Origin: Methylotenera oryzisoli | GTDB taxonomy: Bacteria; Pseudomonadota; Gammaproteobacteria; Burkholderiales; Methylophilaceae | Length of the DNA: 64,000 nt | Direction: 5' to 3' | Assembly: GCA_945881735.1 (NCBI GenBank) | Contig: CAMCVF010000001.1 | Coordinates: 124,001 to 188,000, forward strand | Shown: positions 9,374 to 12,730 of the stretch, piece by piece | How the letters are laid out: each line of letters opens with the position of its first letter | Position numbering within the stretch: the stretch's first letter is position 1 | Notes under the pieces: generated by a model | Told to the model about the DNA's origin: nothing | Seen by the model: only the letters and a program-made list of their open reading frames with translations | Database searches by the model: none | Program-made: the position numbers and the translations under genes

Positions 9374-9825
9374 ATGGATATGAATAAAATGAAACAAACA
9401 GCACAAAAAGGTTTTACATTAATCGAGTTAATGATTGTGGTGGCCATTATCGGTATTTTGGCAGCTGTAGCAATTCCATCTTATCAAGATTACACCGCAA
9501 GAGCACAAGTAACTGAAGCAGTAAACCTACTTGGGGGTGCTAAAACAGATGTCGCATCAAATTTCGATCAAGATGCATCTTGTGTTGCTCCAGTAGTTCA
9601 AGCCGGTAAATATGTAGCTACTATTACGGCGACAGGTACTGCAACTACTTGTACAGTAGTTGCTACATTTAGAGCAACTGGAGTTGCAGCACCCCTCGCG
9701 AGCGGCACTTTAACTATGGTTTACACTCCTGCAAATGCAACACAATGGACCCGCTCATCTAGCCTTGCTGCTAAATATCTTCCAAAAGCATGGAGCTAAT
9801 TTGCAAAGAAGTTAGCCAGCAGGAG
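9300..9825 (+). repeat. Tandem duplication unit, copy 1 (pilin)
   Basis: The stretch from about 75 bases before the first pilin ATG to about 25 bases after its stop recurs 661 bases downstream (about 9961-10486) with high identity. The shared downstream piece TTTGCAAAGAAGTTAGCCAG marks the 3' end. The sigma-54 promoter lies just outside the unit. Confidence 0.9.
9374..9799 (+). CDS. pilA: Type IV major pilin (copy 1)
   Basis: Prepilin with a 13-residue basic leader cut after G13. Mature F14 begins the conserved [20 protein letters not shown] helix with the key glutamate E18 (E5 of the mature protein). A variable globular domain follows, with one likely disulfide C70-C93. At 141 residues it is a short pilin. 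It is first behind the sigma-54 promoter and has the better ribosome binding site of the two copies. The assembly ATPase and platform genes pilB and pilC lie 13 kb away in this window; the prepilin peptidase is not here. Confidence 0.95.
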
Positions 9826-9960: not shown

Positions 9961-10486
9961 AAAAACACTTAAAATAATTTGTGATTACTTGGTGCAAGCA
10001 ACTTAAACTTAAAATTTAATCAAATGGATTTAAAATGAACATGAATAAAATGAAACAAACAGCACAAAAAGGTTTTACATTAATCGAGTTAATGATTGTG
10101 GTGGCCATTATCGGTATTTTGGCAGCTGTAGCAATTCCATCTTATCAAGATTACACGGCAAGAGCACAAGTAACTGAAGCAGTAAACTTACTTGGCGGTG
10201 CTAAAACAGATGTCGCAGCAAATTTCGATCAAGATAGAACTTGTGTTGCTCCAGTAGTTCAAGCCGGTAAATATGTAGCTACTATTACGGCGACAGGTAC
10301 TACAACAACTTGTACAGTAGTTGCTACATTTAGAGCAACTGGAGTTACAGCACCCATTGCGAGCGGCACATTGACTATGGTTTACACTCCTGCAAATGCA
10401 ACACAATGGACCCGCTCATCTAGCCTTGCTGCTAAATATCTTCCAAAAGCATGGAGCTAATTTGCAAAGAAGTTAGCCAGCAGCGG
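9961..10486 (+). repeat. Tandem duplication unit, copy 2 (pilin)
   Basis: Second copy of the 9300-9825 unit, offset 661 bases. It keeps GTGATTACTTGGTG and the rest of the leader, but its Shine-Dalgarno has changed from AAAGGGA to AAATGGA, and it lacks the sigma-54 element. Confidence 0.9.
10035..10460 (+). CDS. pilA2: Type IV pilin (copy 2)
   Basis: Same length (141 aa) and nearly the same protein as copy 1: leader cleavage after G13, glutamate E18, Cys pair C70-C93. Visible substitutions are D2N, S62A, A68R, S69T, A90T and, near residue 110, GVAAPLASG to GVTAPIASG. The changes cluster around the disulfide-bounded region, the part usually exposed on the pilus surface. It may be a minor or silent copy, or a donor for gene conversion. 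No terminator with a clear T-run follows, though an inverted repeat (10481-10491 with 10556-10566) is present. Confidence 0.93.
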
Positions 10487-10601
10487 CAATAGCTCGTCTA
10501 AACGACTGGGCGATGATATGGCATTCGGCTAAAAATGCAACAATACGTTTTGGCTTATTGCTGCTGCAACTGAGTTTTGTAGTTAAGTAATAAGATTTAA
10601 C

Positions 10602-11366
10602 TTATAAATTAAAAATTTGTTGTTGTTGCAAGGCTGTGCAGTGCTGTGTTTGAGGGTTGGCGGCAATTTCTTGCATAATCGTGGCATCTTCGCCTGGTTT
10701 TAAATGCGTGATGTATATTAATGGCTTACTTTGCAAGTGCGCTAACTCGGTTGCCAAGGTTGCAGGGCATAAATGCTTAGAAAGCCTTGCTAATTCAGCC
10801 TCGACATTACTAAAGGCGGTTTCTATAATCAACACTTTTAAATTATTAATTTGATTGATATCGTGCCAAAAAGCGGCGCTACCCATGGTGTCACCCGTAA
10901 ATACTAAACTATTTATGCCATTATCGATTTGGTAGCCAACCGCCGGAATTACATGGTTAGCGGGCATCGCAGTAATGATTTTTCCGCCAATTTGTACACC
11001 ATTGCCCACGGAGATTTCGTTGTATTTTAAAAACGGCGCAGCAGGATCGGGAATTAAATTAAAATTAGGCCAAATAAGCCAATTAAACACATGCTGTTTT
11101 AAAATATTTATTACTTCATGTGTGGCATGTACGGTGACAGGTTCCCTGCGCAGACTCATGACTGTATCTAATAGCAACGGTATGGATACAATGTGGTCAA
11201 GATGCGAATGCGTGACAAAAATATGGTCAATTTTTAATAAGGCATCCAGCAATAAATCACCCACGCCAGTGCCTGCGTCAATTAGCACATCGTCATCCAC
11301 CAATATAGACGTGGTACGCATATCTCCGCCAATACCTCCGCTACAACCTAAAATTTTAATTTGCAT
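10602..11366 (-). CDS. Metallo-beta-lactamase-fold class II-type 3',5'-cyclic-nucleotide phosphodiesterase
   Basis: Zinc hydrolase of 254 residues. It begins MQIKILGCSGGIGGDMRTTS and carries the metal motif THSHLDH (H53, H55, D57, H58), a further Asp in FTGDTMGSAAF and a late His in THLKPGE. This architecture matches the proteobacterial group annotated as class II cAMP/cGMP phosphodiesterases rather than glyoxalase II or RNase Z. Immediately upstream on the same strand is a wrecked CHASE2-type nucleotide cyclase gene (stop 54 bases before this start), a known neighbour of this family. The enzyme thus appears to have lost its cognate cyclase while keeping an intact frame. Substrate is inferred, not shown. 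Confidence 0.75.
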   Translation of the reverse strand: MQIKILGCSGGIGGDMRTTSILVDDDVLIDAGTGVGDLLLDALLKIDHIFVTHSHLDHIVSIPLLLDTVMSLRREPVTVHATHEVINILKQHVFNWLIWPNFNLIPDPAAPFLKYNEISVGNGVQIGGKIITAMPANHVIPAVGYQIDNGINSLVFTGDTMGSAAFWHDINQINNLKVLIIETAFSNVEAELARLSKHLCPATLATELAHLQSKPLIYITHLKPGEDATIMQEIAANPQTQHCTALQQQQIFNL

Positions 11367-11419
11367 TTGTTTATCTTTGATATTGTCTAGTCGCCATTTT
11401 TTATTGTGTAAATTTCTAA

Positions 11420-11925
11420 CTACTTCGTTTCAACATTAAAAGCGCCATCCCAATCCGCTCTTGCTATTGCTTGCCTTAGCTGACCACTACTTGATATAAA
11501 GCGCGTAAAGAAATTTTTGTGGGTGCCTATTTTTCAGATTAATAAACTGTATTTGACTTAAATTAAACTGTTGATTGTGCTGCAACTTAAATGCCCCGCG
11601 ATACAGTTTCAGCTCATCAATAGTTGCCGCCAACAACAGACTTTTTATATCCAACGACTCACATACCGGTACTGGAATATCTTTACCTTTCACCCTGACC
11701 AAATCTAGTTCGAGATATACAAACCGCGGCGTTTGCGCCTTTAAACAATCACAACACGGTTATCTTGTGTGCGAGGCATTAAAAAATTAAGCCGCACGAC
11801 ATGGCTAAAATTTTCAAATTTTGAACAAAGCCCAGCGGCAAGTTTCCGCTAATACTCAACAACATGAGTAAAATAATTGCGATAATTAGCTCAAATGGTA
11901 CTCCATGTTGTTTTAAAAGGGACAA
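11420..11925 (-). pseudogene. Remnant of a CHASE2-sensor adenylate/guanylate cyclase (large internal deletion plus frameshifts)
   Basis: Only the two ends of the protein remain. 5' end (11925 to about 11744): LLKQHGVPFELIIAIILLML, then LSISGNLPLGFVQNLKILA, then in a shifted frame VVRLNFLMPRTQDNRVVIV. This matches the N-terminal membrane helix and first strand of CHASE2 domains (usual form YDARLRL-PRTQD-RIVIVDID). 3' end (about 11740 to 11420): QTPRFVYLELDLVRVKGKD, then IPVPVCESLD and ELKLYRGAFKLQHNQQF, which is the C-terminus of class III cyclases of this type; after a further frameshift ARADWDGAFNVETK and a stop. The middle (most of CHASE2, the transmembrane helices and the whole catalytic core) is gone: about 0.5 kb is left of a gene normally near 2 kb. 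Confidence 0.8.
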
Positions 11926-12034
11926 AAAAACATAATGATTAATAAAATGATTTTAATGTTATTTTACAACTTTTATAATCTATAGCATAACGGATAAACT
12001 TCCTAGTGAATAGGCGGTTTATAATGAATAACAA

Positions 12035-12730
12035 ATGATTTTTATACAGAATAAACCAACAAAATTGACGGATAAACCAATAGAAATAGCCAGTAAACAA
12101 GCAGCAAATGCCAGCGTTATTTGGATGCATGGCCTAGGCGCTGATGGCAACGATTTTGTGCCAGTAGTTGAGATGCTTGACTTACCCCATGTGCGCTTTA
12201 TTTTGCCACATGCGCCCTACCGAAATATCACGCGTAATAATGGCTATGAAATGCGTGCTTGGTACGATATTTATGGATTATTACCCATTAGCCGCGAAGA
12301 TGCGACAGGCATCAGCGAAAGCCAAGCCGCTATTAACGCATTGATTGCACAAGAAATAAACCGTGGCATAGCGCCAAAGCGCATTGTGTTGGCTGGATTT
12401 TCACAAGGCGGTGCGATTGCATTGTATACGGCGTTACGCTACCCAAAACAGCTTGCAGGAGTTCTGGCGCTTTCAAGCTATCTTCCACTTAAAAATAATT
12501 TAGCGCATGAAAAAACCAGCGCAAATCAGCACATCCCCATTTTTATGGGGCATGGCGTGGATGACGACATTATTACCATGGAAACCTGTCAAGCTTCATT
12601 GGCAGCTTTACAAGCTCAAAATTACAATATTGTTTGGCACGAATATCCAATGGCACATTCTGTTTGCATGCCAGAAATCGCGGATATTAAGCAATTTCTC
12701 AAGCAGATTTTAATCGATTCCACTATTTAG
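12035..12730 (+). CDS. Phospholipase/carboxylesterase family alpha/beta hydrolase
   Basis: Cytosolic serine esterase of the acyl-protein thioesterase/EstB family. The oxyanion-hole motif is HGLGADG (32-38) and the nucleophile elbow GFSQGG has S123. The acid is D176 in HGVDDDI and the base H208 in MAHSVCMPE. All catalytic residues are present and the length (231 aa) is normal. The ATG at 12035 is used; the following 25 residues are a short lead-in before the fold. It stands alone between the cyclase ghost and the xseB operon. The physiological ester substrate is unknown. Confidence 0.9.
   Translation: MIFIQNKPTKLTDKPIEIASKQAANASVIWMHGLGADGNDFVPVVEMLDLPHVRFILPHAPYRNITRNNGYEMRAWYDIYGLLPISREDATGISESQAAINALIAQEINRGIAPKRIVLAGFSQGGAIALYTALRYPKQLAGVLALSSYLPLKNNLAHEKTSANQHIPIFMGHGVDDDIITMETCQASLAALQAQNYNIVWHEYPMAHSVCMPEIADIKQFLKQILIDSTI

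Follow-up and report, generated by a model that had tools for sequence, protein, structure and literature searches.

The window analysed here, a 64 kb stretch (64,000 nucleotides) of the Methylotenera oryzisoli genome (Methylophilaceae; contig CAMCVF010000001.1), carries on its minus strand an intact gene for a phosphodiesterase (PDE) of the metallo-beta-lactamase (MBL) fold. In related genomes this gene is the middle one of three, in the order CHASE2 adenylate cyclase, MBL-fold PDE and an effector of about 365 amino acids (aa) with a cyclic nucleoside monophosphate (cNMP)-binding domain and a rhodanese domain. In the window genome (G000) the cyclase is a pseudogene, not a functional member of the CHASE2 class III cyclases, and the effector has been reduced to a stub. 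Therefore, the PDE is now flanked on either side by what is left of its operon partners (Table 1).

The remains of the cyclase lie in three minus-strand frames between 11933 and 11420, with the N-terminal helix in one frame, MPRTQDNRVVIV and ADWDGAFNVETK in a second and LELDLVRVKGKDIPVPV in a third. When the 745-aa CHASE2 cyclase of the relative G006 was used as a query against the whole window, matches were obtained for residues 634-722 (E 2.9e-29), 35-62 (E 2.3e-5), 709-745 (E 6.1e-5) and 8-44 (E 0.011). The pieces are the two ends of one such cyclase in their original order, and the E-values, above all that of the larger piece, together with this order and the synteny, rule out a chance match. 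The ghost DNA matches the intact locus of G007 at 75% over 293 bp and at 77% over 359 bp. Between the two ends about 1.71 kb is gone (2021 less 310 in the coordinates of the G007 alignment), and the catalytic core, residues about 63-633, is absent. There are also small frameshifts, one of them directly after the start codon; the stop codon finishes at 11420, which leaves 53 bases up to the PDE start. A first-pass annotation of the window had described the two ends of a CHASE2 cyclase in three minus-strand frames with the core missing, and had proposed a comparison with relatives; both the description and the comparison hold, since G006 and G007 have an intact cyclase at the same site. That the two fragments come from different genes is rejected, because one intact gene holds both. 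A 71-aa open frame within the ghost (11487-11702) was considered as a kept small gene and was not proved; the ratio of nonsynonymous to synonymous substitution rates (omega, or dN/dS) across the ghost is 0.21. Recent death of the cyclase explains both the open frame and this ratio, the frame has no ATG start, and the piece is gone in G013 and G014.

The effector ghost, which is absent from the first-pass annotation, lies at the expected place and is 61% identical to the effector of G006 (E 1.5e-4 in the whole window). No intact copy of the effector was found in the window genome.

Table 1. Features of the PDE locus (positions within the window).
Feature	Position	Strand	Basis
Effector ghost (cNMP-binding and rhodanese gene), about 31 codons, in-frame stop	10481-10573	-	Match to G006 effector
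Intact MBL-fold PDE, 254 aa, atypical class-II type	10602-11366	-	Open reading frame, profile, motif, fold
Cyclase ghost, C-end: residues about 634-745, one frameshift, original stop kept	11420-11752	-	Alignment to relatives
Internal-deletion junction, short GTGA common to both ends	11745-11752	-	Alignment to G007
Cyclase ghost, N-end: start codon, first membrane helix, about 62 residues, out of frame with itself	11745-11933	-	Alignment to relatives
Upstream region of the old operon, candidate promoter	11934-12034	-	Conservation
Divergent esterase-like gene, conserved synteny anchor	12035-12730	+	Open reading frame, synteny

The PDE had been reported in the first-pass annotation as intact with all its metal ligands, and the seven are indeed in place: H53, H55, D57, H58, H138, D159 and H221, the last three of which we take to be the remaining MBL ligands (H, D, H). 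All seven are unchanged in each of the 54 aligned sequences, five of them from the outgroup. Residues 52-58 (THSHLDH) fit [T/S]HXHXDH, the motif of the atypical class-II PDEs, whose Pfam family is PF12706, according to PMC9293780. The PDE scores 53.7 bits against PF12706 (cut-off 27) and 52.1 bits against PF02112 (cut-off 23.7; residues 46-103 only), and it stays below the curated cut-offs of the NCBIfam family of cyclic nucleotide-degrading phosphodiesterases, NF041851 (34.7 bits, cut-off 400), and of RNase Z, TIGR02651 (72.5 bits, cut-off 292.95). By family score, the identification as an RNase Z is rejected. The AlphaFold model is confident (predicted local distance difference test, pLDDT, 94.5), and a fold search with it returned YhfI (6kns, E 7.4e-15) and yeast PDE1 (4ojv, E 3.9e-14); the nearest solved folds also include an ELAC homologue, RNase Z and Apyc1, at like scores. 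Since the fold neighbours score alike and both the RNase Z and the NCBIfam cut-offs are missed, we infer the substrate. The enzyme probably destroys cyclic AMP (cAMP).

Among 15 Methylotenera genomes, including that of the window, 12 contain a full-length PDE. Six of them (G003, G006, G007, G008, G009 and G010) still have an intact CHASE2 cyclase there, each time followed by the PDE and the effector, the latter cut by the contig end in G003. In G006 and G007 a single intact 745-aa cyclase is flanked by the same esterase-like gene and by the PDE, and the G006 protein (L050) contains both expected domains (CHASE2, 209.5 bits; Guanylate_cyc, 85.4 bits). In the other six PDE-bearing genomes the cyclase is broken or gone, and the pieces left behind differ: both ends in the window genome, a nearly whole but frameshifted gene in G004, two middle pieces in G014, the first 25 residues in G013, and, as the faintest traces, short stretches of the middle part in G002 and G005 (best E 0.001 and 4e-6). 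With regain excluded, a four-gene tree gives at least four separate cyclase losses in the genus, also when the PDE is left out. For the family, the cyclase is intact at 16 of 51 PDE-bearing loci (that of G107 is cut by a contig end), leaves remnants at 8 and is not seen at 27. Dollo counting on the PDE tree gives about 14 losses, the rooting being uncertain; this tree has 49 family sequences, with the distant G061 and G029 excluded and a non-monophyletic outgroup, and the count assumes that there was no regain by transfer.

The nearest loci were also collected from named genomes, the family included. After 7 of the 80 loci were set aside as cut by contig ends, an intact one-frame cyclase was found upstream of the PDE at 61 of the remaining 73, a frameshifted one (G004) at 1, a partial match at 6 and none at 5. 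Three of the five loci with no cyclase are the Methylotenera genomes G013, G005 and G002, and one matches the family genome G109. Hosts of the nearest loci include Methylotenera versatilis 7, Gallionella, Sideroxydans and Sulfuricella; in M. versatilis 7 the cyclase is a ghost, and the PDE, the effector and AC1 (an unlinked cyclase, see below) are retained. At five of the six loci with a partial match, from Gallionella, Gallionellaceae and Gallionellales (L151, L154, L157, L173 and L175) the cyclase match spans 48-59% of the query within frames of 852-895 aa, and perhaps another sensor domain replaces CHASE2 there. One of the 80 PDEs (L179, 7001-7762), next to a CHASE2 cyclase that is intact, is interrupted by a stop at codon 166, which is either a loss of the opposite kind or a sequencing error. 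A second, diverged PDE homologue occurs in G025 (G025:C1:628374-629081, E 1.3e-79), whose main locus has a ghost cyclase and a broken effector. In G012 (L213, 3560-5258) the open frame of the effector begins within a remnant of the cyclase core, as an inverse orphan.

The dN/dS of the PDE, as proposed in the first-pass annotation, points to purifying selection. In a codon likelihood analysis of 12 genus sequences omega is 0.098 overall and 0.074 on the window branch, where omega = 1 is rejected (twice the log-likelihood difference, 2dL, 46.1) and the log-likelihood drops by 4.25 at omega 0.03 and by 2.86 at 0.15. Relaxed selection in lineages without the cyclase is rejected, their omega being 0.082 against 0.114 in the others (2dL 4.36). 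Four clades whose members all lack the cyclase give 0.15 (g18), 0.081 (G002/G005), 0.059 (G013/G014) and 0.107 (G072/G074), with omega = 1 rejected in each (2dL 102-180). Here, g18 is a genus of three species with neither PDE partner at the site, G002 and G005 have a remnant in common, and the loss is likely common to the pair in G013/G014 and in G072/G074. We infer that absence throughout a clade predates the split of the clade, most weakly for G013/G014, where the remnants differ. No internal stop was found in any of 45 PDE matches in family genomes, a search that strongly decayed copies would escape.

Could the PDE then serve another cyclase? This was one of three options left open in the first-pass annotation, beside a different cyclic nucleotide and an imported signal; the annotation had proposed a search for other class III cyclases and for receptors, and it is favoured by the co-occurrence described below. 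The window genome (92.7% complete) has an unlinked membrane adenylate cyclase of 413 aa on another contig (G000:C3:135897-137126; E 1.4e-61), here termed AC1, whose residues 66-413 resemble the solved cyclase 7yzi (E 5e-60). The lysine characteristic of adenylate cyclases is present both in AC1 (KIKTIGD) and in the CHASE2 cyclase (DKYMGD). The search also yielded a membrane protein of the BrkB type with a fused cNMP-binding domain (L101 494-1840, G000:C20), the only cNMP protein found over the Pfam cut-off in the window genome, but no intact effector and no match to the CHASE2 domain; replacement of the lost cyclase by another CHASE2 protein is therefore rejected at this level of completeness. 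Open frames of 433-457 aa that match the cNMP domain, probably the same BrkB-cNMP gene, occur in 14 of the 15 genus genomes and were not seen in G006. A 431-aa protein (L105 1594-2889, G000:C11) exceeds the class III cyclase cut-off only marginally (22.2 against 21.9 bits).

AC1 is present in 13 of the 15 genus genomes, namely all 12 with the PDE and G011, while G001 and G012 have neither. The comparison was extended to 88 family genomes, all but that of the window at least 95% complete, with presence called by E-value thresholds set for this analysis. The PDE occurs in 44 of them, AC1 in 41, the CHASE2 cyclase in 11 and the effector in 36 (broken copies counted). Both PDE and AC1 are found in 38 genomes, the PDE only in 6, AC1 only in 3 and neither in 41 (Fisher 8.8e-15), and the association persists in an exact test within genera (P 4.4e-6), which takes the genomes of one genus as independent. 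The PDE does not track the CHASE2 cyclase within genera (P 0.23). Eight PDE-less genomes from genera with a close PDE (G012, G020, G071, G075, G099, G106, G118 and G123; genus g16, with a distant PDE, was excluded) all lack AC1, and six of the eight are without any match to a class III cyclase. At least one such match was found in 43 of the 44 PDE-bearing genomes, G113 being the exception; the census of class III cyclases comprised 14 of the 88 genomes.

The PDE between the ghost cyclase and the ghost effector has most likely been retained as a sink for the cAMP pool of AC1, a reading that we hold with fair rather than high confidence. Ancestrally, to judge from the domains, the CHASE2 membrane sensor-cyclase would have made cAMP, the PDE would have removed it, and the cNMP-binding/rhodanese effector would have read it. 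In the window lineage the cyclase and the effector have become pseudogenes, while the PDE is intact and constrained on its branch, constraint after the loss being seen in relatives. As co-occurrence and co-loss suggest, AC1 may now make the cAMP and the PDE may remove this AC1-made pool. Among the 12 PDE-bearing loci of the genus, five of one clade were compared, two intact and three ghost; a block of about 50 columns upstream of the operon is well conserved in them, and therefore probably drives the PDE through the ghost, so that transcription would still start at the old operon promoter. The remaining receptor, if any, would be another cNMP-binding protein, for which the BrkB-cNMP protein is a candidate. 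The statement of the first-pass annotation that the synthesis half had been deleted and the degradation half kept thus stands for the two enzymes, but the receptor has been lost as well and the ghost is young.

Several observations weigh against this reading, and they also feed its rivals. Over the 161 codons of the window ghost, omega (0.21) is near the background of 0.17, and omega = 1 is rejected (2dL 24.9). The cyclase therefore died late on the window branch, and the PDE may still decay later; consequently, the window genome alone cannot prove constraint on the PDE after the loss, and the evidence for it comes from relatives. The esterase-like neighbour shifts in the same direction as the PDE (0.132 in cyclase-less lineages against 0.159; 2dL 1.14, 11 sequences), so the lower omega of the PDE is no sign of tightened selection. 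If the operon died only recently, the PDE could be a passenger that has had no time to decay: the ghost has no stop in its 161 codons in the frames read, and the value on the window branch of the PDE is compatible with a short neutral phase. Moreover, in G012 the effector is intact and a remnant of the cyclase persists, whereas the PDE, AC1 and the CHASE2 cyclase have been lost; survival of the PDE beyond its cyclase is thus not universal, and there it is gone together with AC1. However, the PDE is still constrained in the four clades whose members all lack the cyclase, and none of the 45 PDE matches, strongly decayed copies apart, has an internal stop. We therefore regard the passenger explanation as rather unlikely. 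An assembly or sequencing error, for which the 34 contigs of the window genome and single-base lesions in a T run, which we take to be typical of errors, might be cited, is hardly credible: the large deletion is accompanied by smaller lesions and by the stub of the effector, and different remnants are found at the same site in other genomes, among them G014 (one contig) and G013 (three contigs).

As for AC1, its co-occurrence with the PDE is a correlation, and it has exceptions: AC1 without the PDE in three of the 88 family genomes (G035, G083 and G088) and in the genus genome G011 (75% complete, with no PDE match), and the PDE without AC1 in six of the 88. Five of the eight genomes without PDE and AC1 are small (1.5-2.2 Mb), and genome reduction could have taken both genes. 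Nor is the link unique, since the effector tracks the PDE (P 0.0013) and AC1 (P 0.002) within genera as well; in these tests the effector matches of G023, G025 and G112, broken or incomplete, were left aside, and that of G104, which contains a TAG and is truncated at the end of a contig, was kept. It could also be that the original cyclase was never the main reason for the PDE, which would act on another substrate, such as another cyclic nucleotide, the 2',3'-cNMPs from RNA turnover, or, as an RNase Z, the ends of tRNAs. The like scores of RNase Z, YhfI, yeast PDE1 and Apyc1 as fold neighbours fit this, no protein of the window genome scores above the RNase Z cut-off, and the specificity of enzymes of this type is broad: 2',3'-cAMP, 3',5'-cAMP, 3',5'-cGMP and 2',3'-cCMP were all removed by extracts containing Rv1339 (PMC9293780). 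We consider this explanation distinctly unlikely, and retention of the PDE as a sink for AC1-made cAMP remains the preferred one.

Among known systems, the window PDE is most like the atypical class-II PDEs (Rv1339, Corynebacterium glutamicum CpdA and Bacillus subtilis YhfI), with which it has the MBL fold and the metal motif in common. However, it lies below the NF041851 cut-off, and its ancestral operon partner is a CHASE2 cyclase. The fold match to YhfI has a template modelling score (TM) of 0.76-0.81, although the two are only 16-17% identical over it. CpdA acts against just one membrane adenylate cyclase, and cAMP rises when CpdA is deleted (PMC7026483); the same arrangement is proposed here for the window PDE and AC1. 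In Sinorhizobium meliloti, the adenylate/guanylate cyclases CyaD1, CyaD2 and CyaK also have a CHASE2 sensor, and the cAMP that they make acts through a receptor, Clr (PMC13001267), but that receptor is a CRP-family regulator, whereas the one here is a cNMP-binding/rhodanese protein and the cyclase has repeatedly been lost. RNase Z (ELAC) has the same fold (1y44, E 5.5e-15) and N-terminal sequence similarity; in contrast, the window PDE is far under the family cut-off and patchily distributed. The anti-Pycsar nuclease Apyc1 has the MBL fold too (7u2s, E 1.5e-13, TM 0.73-0.75), whereas PDEs of the window type adjoin an adenylate cyclase in bacterial chromosomes. Neither the PDE nor the effector matched a PADLOC profile at E 1e-5, so that a role of the PDE as a defence gene is unsupported; for anti-Pycsar this negative is weak, because the library covers defence and not counter-defence. 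The two cyclases do hit the PycC models of the cyclase domain (best E 1.2e-31 and 6e-12), which is expected of related class III domains. The PDE also matches the phage family phrog_392 of metal-dependent hydrolases (E 2.2e-15).

The synteny anchor at the other end of the locus is a gene that we take to be esterase-like. Directly beside the effector ghost are two tandem pilin genes on the plus strand (9374-9799 and 10035-10460), which share 95% identity across 532 bp of DNA; pilin genes near the same place in several relatives have diverged further.

Gene decay as such is ordinary. No published description of the three-gene operon or of the loss of its cyclase, nor of such repeated loss beside a constrained PDE that tracks an unlinked cyclase, was found among the best-ranked matches in the open literature (0-15 of up to 4,969 papers per query). 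Operon neighbours are usually taken as functional partners, and adjacency of CHASE2 cyclase and PDE is widespread in the nearest genomes; in contrast, within the genera of the family the PDE is kept or lost along with an unlinked cyclase. On a wider view, for which we see the case as evenly poised, cAMP signalling in the Methylophilaceae would have undergone repeated rewiring, with at least four events in Methylotenera and about 14 across the family: the local sensor-cyclase is unplugged, the PDE and usually the receptor move to a global pool supplied by an unlinked cyclase, and the PDE is dropped mainly when synthesis is. If this is true, the PDE would be a companion of cAMP synthesis, wherever in the genome this is encoded, and not of its operon mate. 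The family offers a natural series of genomes, with the whole operon, with the PDE and the effector, with the PDE alone and with the effector alone, which could show which enzyme sets the bacterial cAMP pool and what the effector does with and without cAMP.
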